Source of the DNA: Deltaproteobacteria bacterium | GTDB taxonomy: Bacteria; CG2-30-53-67 | DNA: 64,000 nucleotides | NCBI GenBank assembly: GCA_013151235.1 | Contig: JAADIO010000035.1 | Location: 1-64,000 of the forward strand | Reading direction: 5' to 3' | Shown here: positions 27,250 to 36,298 of the stretch, piece after piece | Layout of the letters: each line of letters begins with the position of its first letter | Numbering within the stretch: position 1 is the first letter of the stretch | Position numbers and translations under genes: made by a program | Notes under the pieces: generated by a model | The model's database searches: none | Told to the model about the DNA's origin: nothing | The model's input: the letters and a program-made list of their open reading frames with translations, nothing else

Positions 27250-29001
27250 ATGAGAAAAAAAACCGCCAGAAAACAGCCGTCCATCCCCAAAGAAAAAACA
27301 CTGAAGGTCATCCGTTCCTCCATCGCAAACAGGAAGAAGGAATGGCAGGGGAAGGAACGAGGAGATGGTTTCGTCATCATCCAGATCGACGGGCTCCCCC
27401 ATCCGATCCTGATGCAGGCCTTGTCCGAAGGCTACATGCCCTTTGTACAAGGGCTCCTTGCATCGGGAGATTTTAATGTCAGTCGTTACCGTTGCGGAAT
27501 CCCCGGCAACACCCCGGCCTCGCAGAGCGGGATCATGTACGGTGAAAATTTCGGGATCCCGGCCTTCCGATGGCTCGACAAACAGAACGACAGCCTTGTA
27601 AGTTTCAAGAACCCCCTCTCGGCACAAACCGTGGAACAGAGCATTTCCCAGGGAAAACGGGGGATCCTGGAGAACGGGAGCAGTTACATCAATCTCCTCT
27701 CGGGAGGCGCCAAACGCTCCGTACTAACCTTGAGCACCTTTCTGACGCAGGACATGCAGAAACGGATCTCCGGACTCGCCATTTTCTTCCTTTTCTTTTT
27801 CAACATCATTCCCGTCTTCCGCTCCCTTCTTTCTTCCGTACTGGAACTGTTTCGGGAACTCTATGAATACCTGGAGATCCGCCTGAAGGGAGGCGTACAA
27901 AAAAGTGAAGGATTCTTCCCGATGGTCCGGATCTTCTCTAATGTCCTGTTTTTTGAAGTCGCCACCGTTGGGGCACTCATCGACATCAATCAGGGAAGAC
28001 CCTCCATCTGGCTGACCTACAACGGATACGACGAGGCCGCACACCAGCGTGGGCCGGAAACCAAATATGCGCTCAAAACCCTTCGCGTGATTGATCGGGG
28101 GATTCGGAAAATCGTTCGCCAGATCCGGAAAAAACGTCGGGGAATGCACTACGATGTTTACATTCTCTCCGATCATGGACAACACCCCTCCATTCCCTTC
28201 CGCTACGAGTTCGGGGAAACCCTGGAAAACTTCATCTACTCCAAGGTCAAGGAAGGACGAATTGCCCAGTACGATTCCGGCGGGGATGTCAAGGATTACC
28301 TCATGCTCGCCCTGAGTTCCACTCTTTACAACTTTGCAGATCAGAACCTTTTTTTCATGCGGAGAATCTTCAAACGGATCGCAAAATACATCGAGCGGAA
28401 CATCCTTCCGGAAGAAACCCGAAAGATCACCGGGAACATCTCCATCGTTAACTCCAGCCCCATGTCCAATCTCTATTTTAATATCGACCGTGGACGAGTC
28501 GATTTGGAACAGATTGAACGGGTCTATCCCGGTCTGGTGGGAGCCCTCGTCCGCCACAAGGGGATCGGCCTCATCCTCGCCCGGTCGGACGGTGATCCGA
28601 TGATCCTCTCCCGGGCAGGTCGGGTCTTCTACCATCACGGCAAAAAACGGATTGACGGAGACGATCCCCTGAGCGGATTCGAGGATGCGGAATTAATCGA
28701 AGCGGAAATCCTTCAGCAATTCTCCATGCCGAACGCCGGAGACCTCGTCCTCTACGGCGCCTTCAAGGAAGGGCGGATCATCAACTTCGAAGAACAGATG
28801 GGCGGTCACGGGGGAATCGGCGGGATGCAGAACACCCCCTTCATCCTCTATCCCAGCCGGATCAAGTACGCCTTCCACTCCATCCGGAATTCCAGGGAGC
28901 TCTATCCGGTCTTTTCAAAATACCTCGGGAAACCATCCCCCCTGACCCCCTCCCCACCCGATCAAGGCCACGCTCTGATGGAAGGGGCAGACCAAGAGTG
29001 A
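27250..29001 (+). CDS. Alkaline-phosphatase-superfamily membrane phosphodiesterase
   Basis: The 583-residue protein from ATG 27250 has the two-metal site of nucleotide pyrophosphatase/phosphodiesterases: VIIQIDGLPHPIL (Asp), GIPGNTPASQSGIMYG (Thr nucleophile), WLTYNGYDEAAHQRGP (Asp, His), ILSDHGQHPS (Asp-His) and MGGHGGIGG (His). A hydrophobic segment of about 20 residues near 180-200 splits the catalytic domain, so part of it is membrane-bound. The basic N-terminus has no signal peptide. Function unknown; lipid or phosphate-ester cleavage at the membrane is inference. Confidence 0.8.
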   Translation: MRKKTARKQPSIPKEKTLKVIRSSIANRKKEWQGKERGDGFVIIQIDGLPHPILMQALSEGYMPFVQGLLASGDFNVSRYRCGIPGNTPASQSGIMYGENFGIPAFRWLDKQNDSLVSFKNPLSAQTVEQSISQGKRGILENGSSYINLLSGGAKRSVLTLSTFLTQDMQKRISGLAIFFLFFFNIIPVFRSLLSSVLELFRELYEYLEIRLKGGVQKSEGFFPMVRIFSNVLFFEVATVGALIDINQGRPSIWLTYNGYDEAAHQRGPETKYALKTLRVIDRGIRKIVRQIRKKRRGMHYDVYILSDHGQHPSIPFRYEFGETLENFIYSKVKEGRIAQYDSGGDVKDYLMLALSSTLYNFADQNLFFMRRIFKRIAKYIERNILPEETRKITGNISIVNSSPMSNLYFNIDRGRVDLEQIERVYPGLVGALVRHKGIGLILARSDGDPMILSRAGRVFYHHGKKRIDGDDPLSGFEDAELIEAEILQQFSMPNAGDLVLYGAFKEGRIINFEEQMGGHGGIGGMQNTPFILYPSRIKYAFHSIRNSRELYPVFSKYLGKPSPLTPSPPDQGHALMEGADQE

Positions 29002-29061
29002 GACCCCAAGAAGCAATCGGATGGGCACTCTGAAACGTTTGAGATTCAATTAGAAATGAAA

Positions 29062-29338
29062 TCAGGCAACCACTTTCCGGGGAAGGATCATACGCCGGAA
29101 CCGACCGCCGATTCGGCGAATCAGATGCAGGGCAAGCCGGCGGTGCAGGTTCCAACGCTCCATGGCGAGTGCAATGCAAAAGCCCCCCCAGAAAGAGAAA
29201 GATGTTCTCGTTGGCGTAGGGTCGCGCAATGGCGACGCTGTTCATGATCCCCAGGAGCGGAAACAACAACAGCGGCGCCAGCGCCGTGACCGGAATGGGG
29301 ATTGCCTCGGTCATCCAGCAACAGACCATCAGAACCGC
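29062..29338 (-). pseudogene. DASS/SLC13-family transporter fragment, frameshifted
   Basis: The first part reads WMTEAIPIPVTALAPLLLF, PLLGIMNSVAIARPYANENI and FLFLGG, the conserved N-terminal block of divalent anion:sodium symporters. At a run of seven C on the plus strand (29183-29189) the frame shifts, after which GGFCIALAMERWNLHRRLAL continues the family sequence. A stop follows at 29062-29064 and nothing of the remaining 350 or so residues is present. An in-frame TAG also lies just upstream at 29339-29341. Confidence 0.75.
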
Positions 29339-29401: not shown

Positions 29402-30199
29402 TTAAAGCGCTTCCTTGCGGCGTTGACGTTCGCGCAGATCATCCTTGGTCCATACATAGGGAAGATCAATCACCGTTCCCGCAGGAAGTTTTTCGGCCGC
29501 ATAGCGCAAACAGTCGAGCAAGATATTTTCGTGTGTAATGGAATCTCCCACATCGCCGAGGGTCAGGCCGAAGGGATGACGAAGATAGAGGGCCAGGGAG
29601 GGCTTCACCTGCAGGGTGATCTCCCGCACCAGGGAGATCGAGACCGTGCACAGGCCCATCCGGTCGAGAACTCTCTGAATCAGTCCCACGGACTGGCTAC
29701 AGACCGGTCAGGAGGGCACCAGGATCACGAGATCGACTCCGTCATCGAGAAGCGCGCCGCCAACCAAAGGCACCCGTTCCGCGATCAGTTTTTCCGGAAA
29801 AGGAACATACCCCATGAAAGAGAAATGTCTCGGAGCCGCCTCACGGATCGCCCCTTCGATCCGCAGCTGTTTCAACAGTCCCAAGGGGAAAACGCAGTCC
29901 AGGTCTTTCAATGCGCGCTTCGTGTCGTAGCCGGGATGGGCTAAAGCGATCTCTTCCGGATCGATATCGTTCGGGATAACCCGAAAGCTGTCATCTCCCA
30001 GCTTATTGCGGGTGGAAAACGGCCCCTGACGATTGCGCAAATAGGCTCCTGATGTGGTGACCAGTGCAACCCGGCATTGATCAACCGGTTTTCCAACGGG
30101 ATGGTGATCGGTCGGCCGGCTGAAGTACATCCATTCAAAATCAGGCAGGATACGGCTTCGGATATAGTCTCTTTCAACCTCTGCGAAGTTCAAACTCAC
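29402..30199 (-). CDS. Selenoprotein of the glycine/betaine/sarcosine/D-proline reductase B type, TGA = Sec164
   Basis: Start GTG 30199 follows an AAGGAG box. The frame meets TGA at 29708-29710 and then stays open in the same frame to 29402, for 265 residues in all. Family features lie on both sides: TRNKLGDDSFRVIPNDID and GYDTKRALKDLDCVFPLG before, VGLIQRVLDRMGLCTVSISL and ITLQVKPSLALYLRHPFGL after. The TGA is read in LVILVPS-U-PVCSQS, placing Sec exactly at the UxxC redox motif of this family. A SECIS-like double stem follows directly. Members are thought to be redox enzymes. No Sec machinery or glycine reductase partners are in the window. Reading it as two broken halves is possible but much less likely. 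Confidence 0.85.
29660..29710 (-). promoter_or_regulatory. Bacterial SECIS-like element at the Sec codon
   Basis: Immediately after TGA (29708-29710) the minus strand has CCGGTC (29702-29707), pairing with GACCGG (29660-29665). Inside lies a perfect hairpin CAGTCC-GTG-GGACTG (29681-29695). The apical loop starts with GU 19 bases after TGA, which fits the known position and loop rule for bacterial SELB-binding elements. Confidence 0.75.
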
Positions 30200-30243: not shown

Positions 30244-30426
30244 CTTAGTGGCCCTATTCGTAAATACGGTGGCCTGTCTGCGTGCGGCCCGCCCGCACAG
30301 GCAGGCCTCGTCTTCGTTGCGCTCCCTACACCGTACCACAGGGGGTACGCTTCAGTCGCGTGCCTTGATGAGACCGTCCTGCGACCCTCTCGGTGCGTCA
30401 CAGTATTTGCGAACAGGACCTCTTGG
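30244..30426 (+). mobile_element. MITE-like element, copy A
   Basis: About 183 bp with terminal inverted repeats: GGCCCTATTCGTAAATACGG at the left and, reversed, GTCCTGTTCGCAAATACTGT at the right. A strong internal hairpin lies near the left end (CCTGTCTGCGTGCGG against CCGCACAGGCAGG). No coding capacity. A related copy in opposite orientation lies at 36094-36298. The right end contains the stop codon of the nrtS-like gene; the left end lies 45 bp upstream of the selenoprotein start. Confidence 0.7.
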
Positions 30427-30703
30427 GATCATCAGATTGTTGTTCCCGGAGGGCTGTGATTTGTGAGTGCAATGAAACTCCAAAGGGCACGATGAAACAG
30501 AGGACCACTTGAATGAAACTTCTTTTTGTAAGGGCTTCTCCAAATAGAAGATCAGTGTGATTAATCAGCACGAGCATGATCCCCACGATCAAAGAAACAC
30601 GCGTTGCCCGAAGAAATATTTTTATGGATGTTTCCCTTTGTGTTCTCAAAAATCGTTCTCTACCTCGGAAATTGTCCCCTATTCTTTTCTGTTCTTCAAC
30701 CAA
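30398..30703 (-). CDS. NrtS-like nitrate/nitrite transport protein
   Basis: A protein of up to 101 residues with two membrane helices. FLRATRVSLIVGIMLVLINH, then a loop, then CFIVPFGVSLHSQ, resemble the NrtS family (ALKVALVVGT...INHG...YLVPY). Only TTG starts are available: 30703, or 30649 behind a GAGG box. It overlaps the upstream gene by about 25 bp. The stop codon and last nine residues lie inside the MITE-like element, so the natural C-terminus has probably been replaced. Confidence 0.55.
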   Translation of the reverse strand: MVEEQKRIGDNFRGRERFLRTQRETSIKIFLRATRVSLIVGIMLVLINHTDLLFGEALTKRSFIQVVLCFIVPFGVSLHSQITALREQQSDDPKRSCSQIL

Positions 30704-31083
30704 TGGAACAGACCCTTGCTTCCCTGAACCGGAGCTATGGTAGGCGGCTTTTCCCTCGGGTCATCAAGCTTCATTTCCCACCATGCCTTCGGGCTTCTGG
30801 TGCCGCAGGAAGCACACTGATAGGGGTCGTAGATTTTGATCCAACTCGGCTGATCCGGTATATGTACATAGACCCAGCCCGCGCCCCGCTTGCGGTTTTT
30901 GACATCCTCAATTCTTGCCGCCAGAAAGGTTGAAGCCTCCCCTGCCTCGGCTACAAAGAGTGTCTCCATCCCTTTCTCCGGGGAGTGGATATACCAGGGG
31001 CCTCGGGTTTGGATTCTCGTAACCAGTTCGTCTGCCCGTTCCCATGTGAGAAGCCCGGTTAGCGGTTTGGAGTGATTGGACAT
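30679..31083 (-). CDS. Hypothetical protein with a C-x2-C pair
   Basis: The 134-residue protein has a good ribosome site (GGAAGGAGACCGCAACC before ATG 31083). It is soluble, begins MSNHSKPLTGLLTWERADEL and contains YQCASCGTRSPKAWWEMKL near 91-109, a single zinc-ribbon-like pair. I do not recognise the family. It is co-directional with, and overlaps, the NrtS-like gene; the AhpD-like gene ends 38 bp upstream. Confidence 0.6.
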   Translation of the reverse strand: MSNHSKPLTGLLTWERADELVTRIQTRGPWYIHSPEKGMETLFVAEAGEASTFLAARIEDVKNRKRGAGWVYVHIPDQPSWIKIYDPYQCASCGTRSPKAWWEMKLDDPREKPPTIAPVQGSKGLFHWLKNRKE

Positions 31084-31121: not shown

Positions 31122-31652
31122 TTAAAAATCGATGTCCACCTGCAAGGCATCCAGAAATCTATTAAAAGAGGTGAAGAGTTCCATGACACCAAGGGCCTCA
31201 ATGATTTCCGCATCGCTGACGCCGGTCTTGCGAAGGGCATCAAATTCGTCCCCCGTGATCTTCAACGGTTCCCGGCTCGCCTTCCGTGCAAAGCGGATCA
31301 AGGCCTGTTCTTGGGCATTAAAATCAGCCTTGTCGATCTGTTCCGTGATGTTTTGGATCTCTTCCTCCGAAACGCCGATCGATTTCAGCGCACCCGTATG
31401 GGCCGCGACACAATAGGCACAGCTGTTGTCCTTGGAGACGAGAACGGCGATGGTCTGCTTGACCTTCTGGTTCAGATCTCCCTGCACCATCACCGCCTTG
31501 ACCTTGTTCCAGTTGGCTTCCAAAAGGGGGGGATAGTGGGCGTAGGTCCTGAACAGATTGGGCACCATACCAAACTCTGCTTCAACTTCCTTGAATATTT
31601 CCTGGACTTGACTGGAAAGGTTTTGCGCTTCCGGCGGCTGAATCCTAGACAT
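31122..31652 (-). CDS. Carboxymuconolactone decarboxylase / AhpD-family peroxidase-related protein
   Basis: Start ATG 31652 lies eight bases after AGGAGG (an in-frame GTG three codons earlier sits in the ribosome site). The 176-residue protein carries the AhpD-type redox motif DNSCAYCVAAHTGALKSIGV (CxxC with distal His) and an N-terminal GMVPNLFRTYAHYPPLLEA typical of uncharacterised peroxidase-related enzymes. A TetR regulator gene with a matching operator lies just upstream, so it is probably induced by an organic or oxidative stress ligand. Confidence 0.88.
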   Translation of the reverse strand: MSRIQPPEAQNLSSQVQEIFKEVEAEFGMVPNLFRTYAHYPPLLEANWNKVKAVMVQGDLNQKVKQTIAVLVSKDNSCAYCVAAHTGALKSIGVSEEEIQNITEQIDKADFNAQEQALIRFARKASREPLKITGDEFDALRKTGVSDAEIIEALGVMELFTSFNRFLDALQVDIDF

Positions 31653-31703
31653 GATGAACACCTCCTATAATACAGGTTAACAAAATAACCGCCCAAATTA
31701 TAA

Positions 31704-31741: not shown

Positions 31742-32329
31742 TTATTCCTTCAAACCAATCAATACCTCAAGGGATTTCAAACAGTTTTGGAACAATCTTT
31801 CATCCTTTTCAAGTCTAGCCATCATGATGCAGCCTTCCAGCGTTGAAACCACATGACGGGCTAGCAGGTGGGCGGAAAGATCGTTCCGTACTTCGCCTGA
31901 AACCTGTGCGTTTTTGATAACGTCCTGAAGTTTTTCTACCCATTCTTCAAAGATCCCTCTGATAAAGTTTGCGAAGAAAGGCTCCTTGTCACTCATTTCC
32001 AGGGCGGTATTTCCGAAGATACACCCTCCCACGAAACCATTGCTTTTATGCTTTTTGAATACACATTGAAAGAAACGGCGGAGTGATGCACCCGGTGTTG
32101 TACCGGAGAGGGAGCGGTTGAGAAACTCCAGGAATTCTTCCCTGGCCTTTTTCAGGATGGCAAGAGCCAGGGCATCTTTCCCTTCAAAATGAAAATAGAG
32201 ACTCCCTTTTTTCAGCCCCGTGGCCGCAACCAGATCATTGATGCTGGTGGCTCCAAATCCCTTCTGATGAAAAAGACGGGTCGCCTCGGAAAGTATTTTT
32301 TCCCGCGTCACCCCCCCTTTGGTTTGCAT
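31742..32329 (-). CDS. TetR/AcrR-family transcription regulator
   Basis: Start ATG 32329 follows GGGAGG. The 195-residue protein has the N-terminal helix-turn-helix ILSEATRLFHQKGFGATSIN ... GLKKGSLYFHFEGKDALALA and a C-terminal ligand domain with FVGGCIFGNTALEMSDKEPF, as in the YcdC/NemR-like C subgroup. It is upstream of and co-directional with the AhpD-like gene. Shared palindromes before both genes suggest it represses itself and the downstream gene. Confidence 0.92.
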   Translation of the reverse strand: MQTKGGVTREKILSEATRLFHQKGFGATSINDLVAATGLKKGSLYFHFEGKDALALAILKKAREEFLEFLNRSLSGTTPGASLRRFFQCVFKKHKSNGFVGGCIFGNTALEMSDKEPFFANFIRGIFEEWVEKLQDVIKNAQVSGEVRNDLSAHLLARHVVSTLEGCIMMARLEKDERLFQNCLKSLEVLIGLKE

Positions 32330-32348
32330 CTCGCCTCCCACACCAAAA

Positions 32349-36093: not shown

Positions 36094-36298
36094 CTTAGTA
36101 GTCCTGTTCGTAAATACTGTGACGCACCGAGAGGATTGCAGGATGGCCTCATCAGGGCGTGTAACAAAGGCATACCCCTGTGGTACTGCAGAGAGCACAA
36201 CGTAGAGGAAGAAGCCGTCCTGCGGCACTCAAATGCCTGCCTGTGCGGGCGGGCCGCACGCAGACAGGCCACCGTATTTACGAATAGGGCCCCTTAGA
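36094..36298 (-). mobile_element. MITE-like element, copy B
   Basis: About 205 bp, inverted relative to copy A at 30244-30426 and about 75-80% similar by eye, with a roughly 20-bp longer middle. Terminal inverted repeats are GTCCTGTTCGTAAATACTGT (left) and, reversed, GGCCCTATTCGTAAATACGG (right). The same hairpin-forming GC segment is present near 36231-36270. Its right end includes the TAA stop of the OB/HD gene. Confidence 0.7.

Follow-up and report, generated by a model that had tools for sequence, protein, structure and literature searches.

The redox protein family to which the selenoprotein described here belongs has been known since 2005. In the Sargasso Sea data, selenocysteine-containing (Sec) PrdB with a UxxC motif was the third most abundant selenoprotein family, with 42 genes (PMC1088965), and 235 PrdB-type sequences were found in the GOS marine metagenome (PMC2398784). 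Members in the two surveys were mostly Sec forms, with some cysteine (Cys) forms (PMC1088965, PMC2398784). 'Proline reductase' selenoproteins have also been listed for Anaeromyxobacter and Geobacter (PMC1794560). Nothing specific was found in the open-access literature searched on the function of stand-alone PrdB-like proteins.

The window (the whole stretch of DNA that was analysed, 64,000 nucleotides) contains a gene whose product belongs to this already reported kind of selenoprotein, Sec PrdB-type with UxxC. What appears to be new is confined to its stand-alone context and its AhpD-like neighbour, neither of which was found described in the open-access literature searched. The locus is very probably a genuine, intact selenoprotein gene with a stand-alone product, and its in-frame stop codon is almost certainly read as selenocysteine. 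The conservation of the TGA column, a covarying hairpin, and the sel genes and tRNA-Sec found in the genome are the grounds for this reading.

The gene, its family and its missing partner subunits

The GTG start codon is preceded by AGGAG, and with the TGA read as a residue the 265-codon frame has no other interruption (Table 1). The TGA stands in the context LVPS-U-PVC-SQSVGL, where U is residue 164. Standard gene calling split the locus into ORFs of 163 and 95 aa, as an earlier sequence-only reading of this DNA had anticipated when it described two halves of one family protein, sharing a frame and parted by a single TGA at a UxxC position. The single frame, and the membership of both halves in one family, agree with that description of the site; the strand, which the earlier reading left out, is minus. 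Default annotation would split this PrdB-like gene and lose its active site.

Table 1. Positions of the selenoprotein gene, its recoding signals and the genes upstream of it
Feature	Position	Strand	Details
PrdB-like selenoprotein gene, complete	30199-29402	minus	GTG start 30199, Sec-TGA residue 164, TAA stop 29404-29402, 265 aa
In-frame TGA read as Sec, UxxC motif U-P-V-C	29710-29708	minus	TGA in 28/32 aligned members
SECIS core hairpin, CAGUCC-GUG-GGACUG at 29695-29681 plus flanking pairs	29697-29679	minus	covariation; absent from four non-Sec members; published bSECIS constraints
Outer stem CCGGUC (29707-29702)/GACCGG (29665-29660) around the core	29707-29660	minus	predicted fold; kept in sister genome, not family-wide
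134-aa protein, no Pfam family, between AhpD-like and PrdB-like genes	30679-31083	minus	same place in G002
AhpD/carboxymuconolactone-decarboxylase-like protein, CxxC motif (CAYC)	31122-31661	minus	Pfam CMD 7.4e-16
TetR-family regulator, upstream of AhpD-like gene	31742-32341	minus	same order in G002

The protein matched Pfam GRDB (PF07355) with 26 bits, above the cut-off of 22, and NCBIfam PrdB (TIGR04483) at E 1.5e-31 with 109.6 bits, which is below the equivalog cut-off of 300. The GrdF, GrdB and GrdH models all scored weaker than TIGR04483. A maximum-likelihood tree placed the clostridial PrdB references in one clade (100/100), and the window's protein, together with those of the sister genome (G002), L022, L023 (Blastocatellia) and L024 (Acidobacteria), stood apart from it, with support of 86/91 for these five alone. 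Members from three further genomes that share the window's family and class (G005-G007) sit in another clade, so the history of the gene in this group includes gain, loss or transfer. Structure prediction from the single sequence had a mean pLDDT of 33.7; a four-sequence alignment yielded five models, one of them good (82.5), for which a Foldseek search returned no solved fold at an E-value of 0.001 or lower.

Glycine and proline reductases require partner subunits. Searches of the window's own assembly (G000; 2.62 Mb, 99% complete) found neither PF09338 (GrdE/PrdA type) nor GRDA, and the same searches gave matches in G043 and G080, control genomes that carry GrdB. The PrdA equivalog TIGR04480 had no match in the genome, in a search run without a positive control. 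These results bear on the possibility that the gene encodes a reductase subunit, either the PrdB of D-proline reductase or the GrdB-type one of glycine, sarcosine or betaine reductase. Its match to TIGR04483, its PF07355 score above the cut-off and a UxxC like that of PrdB would all fit such a role, which is nevertheless very improbable given the shortfall against the PrdB cut-off, the clade separate from clostridial PrdB and the absence of PF09338 and GRDA from the genome. By these comparisons the product is a stand-alone PrdB-like selenoprotein that is a subunit of neither D-proline nor glycine reductase, and D-proline and glycine are unlikely substrates. The glycine-reductase-B-type label first given to it holds at the level of the GrdB/PrdB superfamily, whose member PrdB (TIGR04483) comes nearest to this protein; it stands alone, with no partner genes.

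Probable recoding of the TGA

Homologues were sought in 193 genomes and in one scan of 84,980 species, and ranged from 82% identity (G002, of the same family) to the twilight zone. In the protein alignment, the residue-164 column was TGA in 28 of the 32 rows, the window counted among them, and no row had TAA or TAG there. The remaining rows had TGC (Cys; L042 and L044), GGC (Gly; L041) and TCG (Ser; L046), and the column is shared by a true GrdB (L049). The sequence-only reading had proposed looking for Cys or Sec at this column in homologues, and one or the other was found in every row save the two with Gly or Ser. These two rows are distant members (L041 from G060, L046 from G061) in which Gly or Ser replaces Sec/Cys, and their sequences suggest that the redox residue was lost in some branches.

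Compared with G002, the gene differed at 19, 15 and 55 first, second and third codon positions before the TGA (150 codons) and at 12, 5 and 33 after it (99 codons); the nonsynonymous codons numbered 30 of the 150 and 13 of the 99. On either side of the TGA the differences gather at third positions, so the downstream part is translated and constrained. By these counts purifying selection acts on both halves, and it constrains the codons downstream of the TGA to the same degree as the upstream ones.

The UGA is followed by a hairpin with a 6-bp stem and a GUG loop, 18 nt separating the UGA from the loop and the loop G being base 19 after it, which is where the sequence-only reading had placed a GU loop. 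Its geometry lies within the published bSECIS constraints (a loop of 3-9 nt with G in its first two positions, a stem of 4-16 bp, a distance of 16-37 nt to the UGA, MFE at most -7.5). The energy of the 53-nt fold was -18.9, the limit of -7.5 having been applied to that fold and not via bSECISearch. This energy is unremarkable (z = -1.1; 33 of 200 shuffles folded equally well), and the hairpin geometry with a GU loop was found at only 3 of the 2036 TGAs on both strands of the window. An Rfam scan of the region gave no SECIS family match.

The hairpin was aligned across 25 homologues, leaving out the GrdB (L049) and two members whose hairpin geometry differs (L047 and L053). Standard pairing was seen in 95.4% of the pair cells, with 25 double changes, and none of 500 shuffles matched either figure. 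The covariation score was 0.470, where shuffling gave 0.154 +/- 0.026 and slid pairings no more than 0.067; the loop G and U were invariant. When L047 and L053 were added, pairs 16-30 to 20-26 were formed in 25-26 of the 27 rows. The four non-Sec members have no such hairpin at this place, an argument for a role of the structure in Sec insertion and against one in the peptide. The family's covariance model gave this site 45.3 bits, a score it has by construction since the window's sequence is among the 25 that built the model, and the informative value is the gap to the rest, the whole-genome runner-up being an out-of-frame site with 20.2 bits. That runner-up (on C23) lies outside any gene frame read through a Sec codon and was taken as a chance match.

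The outer stem that had also been pointed out is present in the predicted fold. All six of its pairs are kept in the sister species G002 and in L039 and L040, and 0-5 of the six in the remaining members, so that it cannot be called conserved family-wide. The conserved SECIS core is the inner hairpin only, the outer stem being mostly lineage-specific.

The genome in which the gene lies has selA (620.4 bits; cut-off 268), selB (422.6 bits; cut-off 242), selD (370.4 bits; cut-off 125) and tRNA-Sec (selC; 73.3 bits, gathering 47), whose anticodon loop CUUCAAA contains the anticodon UCA. All four of the genes that the earlier reading had suggested looking for were thus found, and neither of the two observations that it had named as refuting its claim, a genome lacking sel genes or homologues with another conserved residue at the site, was made. 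The selD gene has an in-frame TGA of its own, in SGAGUACKL. A hairpin-like GUCC-UUC-GGAC follows that TGA (L060 4219-4330, G000:C43), and its loop is without the G-U of the PrdB-like hairpin.

These observations leave little room for other explanations of the split frame. Two separate functional proteins, the first stopping at the TGA and the second beginning at GTG 29689, could be proposed on the strength of that GTG, seven codons past the TGA; however, this codon forms the loop of the SECIS hairpin, the Cys members are continuous single proteins, and no member has TAA or TAG at the TGA column, all of which makes this arrangement exceedingly improbable. A pseudogene or sequencing error, in which a nonsense TGA in a Cys gene leaves two truncated, non-functional ORFs such as the 163 and 95 aa pieces of the default gene caller, has a negligible chance of being correct and is refuted by the same TGA, with the same hairpin, in many distant members from independent genomes and by the purifying selection on the downstream half.

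Neighbouring genes and proposed chemistry

The genes for the 134-aa, AhpD-like and TetR proteins all lie upstream of the PrdB-like gene on the same strand. In G002 the AhpD-like gene is near the PrdB-like gene, with one further gene between them; it directly adjoins the PrdB-like gene in L023 and L024 and is an N-terminal fragment in L022. It is intact in L059, L023 and L024. Outside the window's clade, which has four intact loci, no AhpD-like linkage was found among all other context loci. This conserved position suggests that the AhpD-like neighbour and the PrdB-like protein share a redox task, and the CxxC protein is a tentative candidate for a partner or regeneration factor.

Two other features flank the gene. 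The window carries, at 30246-30424 and 36101-36297, a MITE-like dispersed element that is about 175 bp long and has terminal inverted repeats (CCTRTTCGYAAATACNGTG); the genome contains 32 matches to it, full or partial. One copy lies in the spacer immediately upstream of the selenoprotein gene, where G002 has none. Just downstream, a fragment at 28865-29329 (minus) resembles the N-terminal part of a transporter of the CitMHS anion type (E 5.8e-4, under the cut-off) and is probably a decayed gene.

To the frame, the Sec machinery, the SECIS covariation, the conservation and the lack of PrdA, GrdE and GrdA, all of them computed here, established knowledge of PrdB and GrdB adds a proposed chemistry. 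At the UGA of residue 164, the hairpin, through its G-U loop 19 bases downstream, would recruit SelB with Sec-tRNA(UCA), and selenocysteine would be inserted in place of termination; all the computational tests at hand support such SelB-dependent insertion. The 265-aa product, a member of the PrdB/GrdB superfamily, would be a stand-alone oxidoreductase with U-P-V-C as its active site. As in the family, its selenolate would attack a C-N, C-X, peroxide or disulfide bond of the substrate, the downstream Cys would resolve the intermediate, and a dithiol donor would re-reduce the resulting selenenylsulfide. Reductive chemistry is probable on this analogy. It is conceivable, though rather doubtful, that the window's clade and its Acidobacteriota relatives represent a distinct selenoenzyme that acts with an AhpD-like partner in detoxification or in peroxide or xenobiotic reduction; if so, the function would be unlike that of any known Prd or Grd reductase.

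Comparison with known systems

The metagenomic PrdB-type proteins and those of Anaeromyxobacter and Geobacter, compared here by description only, are like the window's protein in having Sec in UxxC and being assigned to PrdB/pfam07355. Those reports were not found to describe the window's exact clade or its AhpD-like neighbour. Elsewhere, a stand-alone PrdB-like Cys gene (NCPVC) adjoins a SelO gene on a plasmid of Roseomonas haemaphysalidis (L105 4965-7350), and on a plasmid of Peptoclostridium acidaminophilum (L103 3965-4678) a Sec prdB (TAGUGTC) has no prdA annotated within 4 kb, in a gene table that is incomplete.

The C-terminal half of GrdB (PF07355) is homologous and has Sec at this column as well, but GrdB is about 430 aa long, has UxxCxxC and acts together with GrdA and GrdE, neither of which was found in the window's genome. 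Another known system is similar in length and site: the PrdB of D-proline reductase (Terrisporobacter, Acetoanaerobium; L104, L106) has about 240 aa with Sec at the equivalent place, and is homologous to the window's protein over residues 32-252 with about 30% identity (TIGR04483). However, this PrdB has UGTC, whereas the window's protein has UPVC, belongs to a separate clade, has no PrdA partner and scores below the equivalog cut-off. As this case shows, a protein can lack the subunits that these reductases need and still be called 'proline reductase' or 'glycine reductase selenoprotein B' by family models. The stand-alone case indicates that a widespread selenoprotein family includes members without an assigned substrate, for which the conserved AhpD-like neighbour provides a testable lead.
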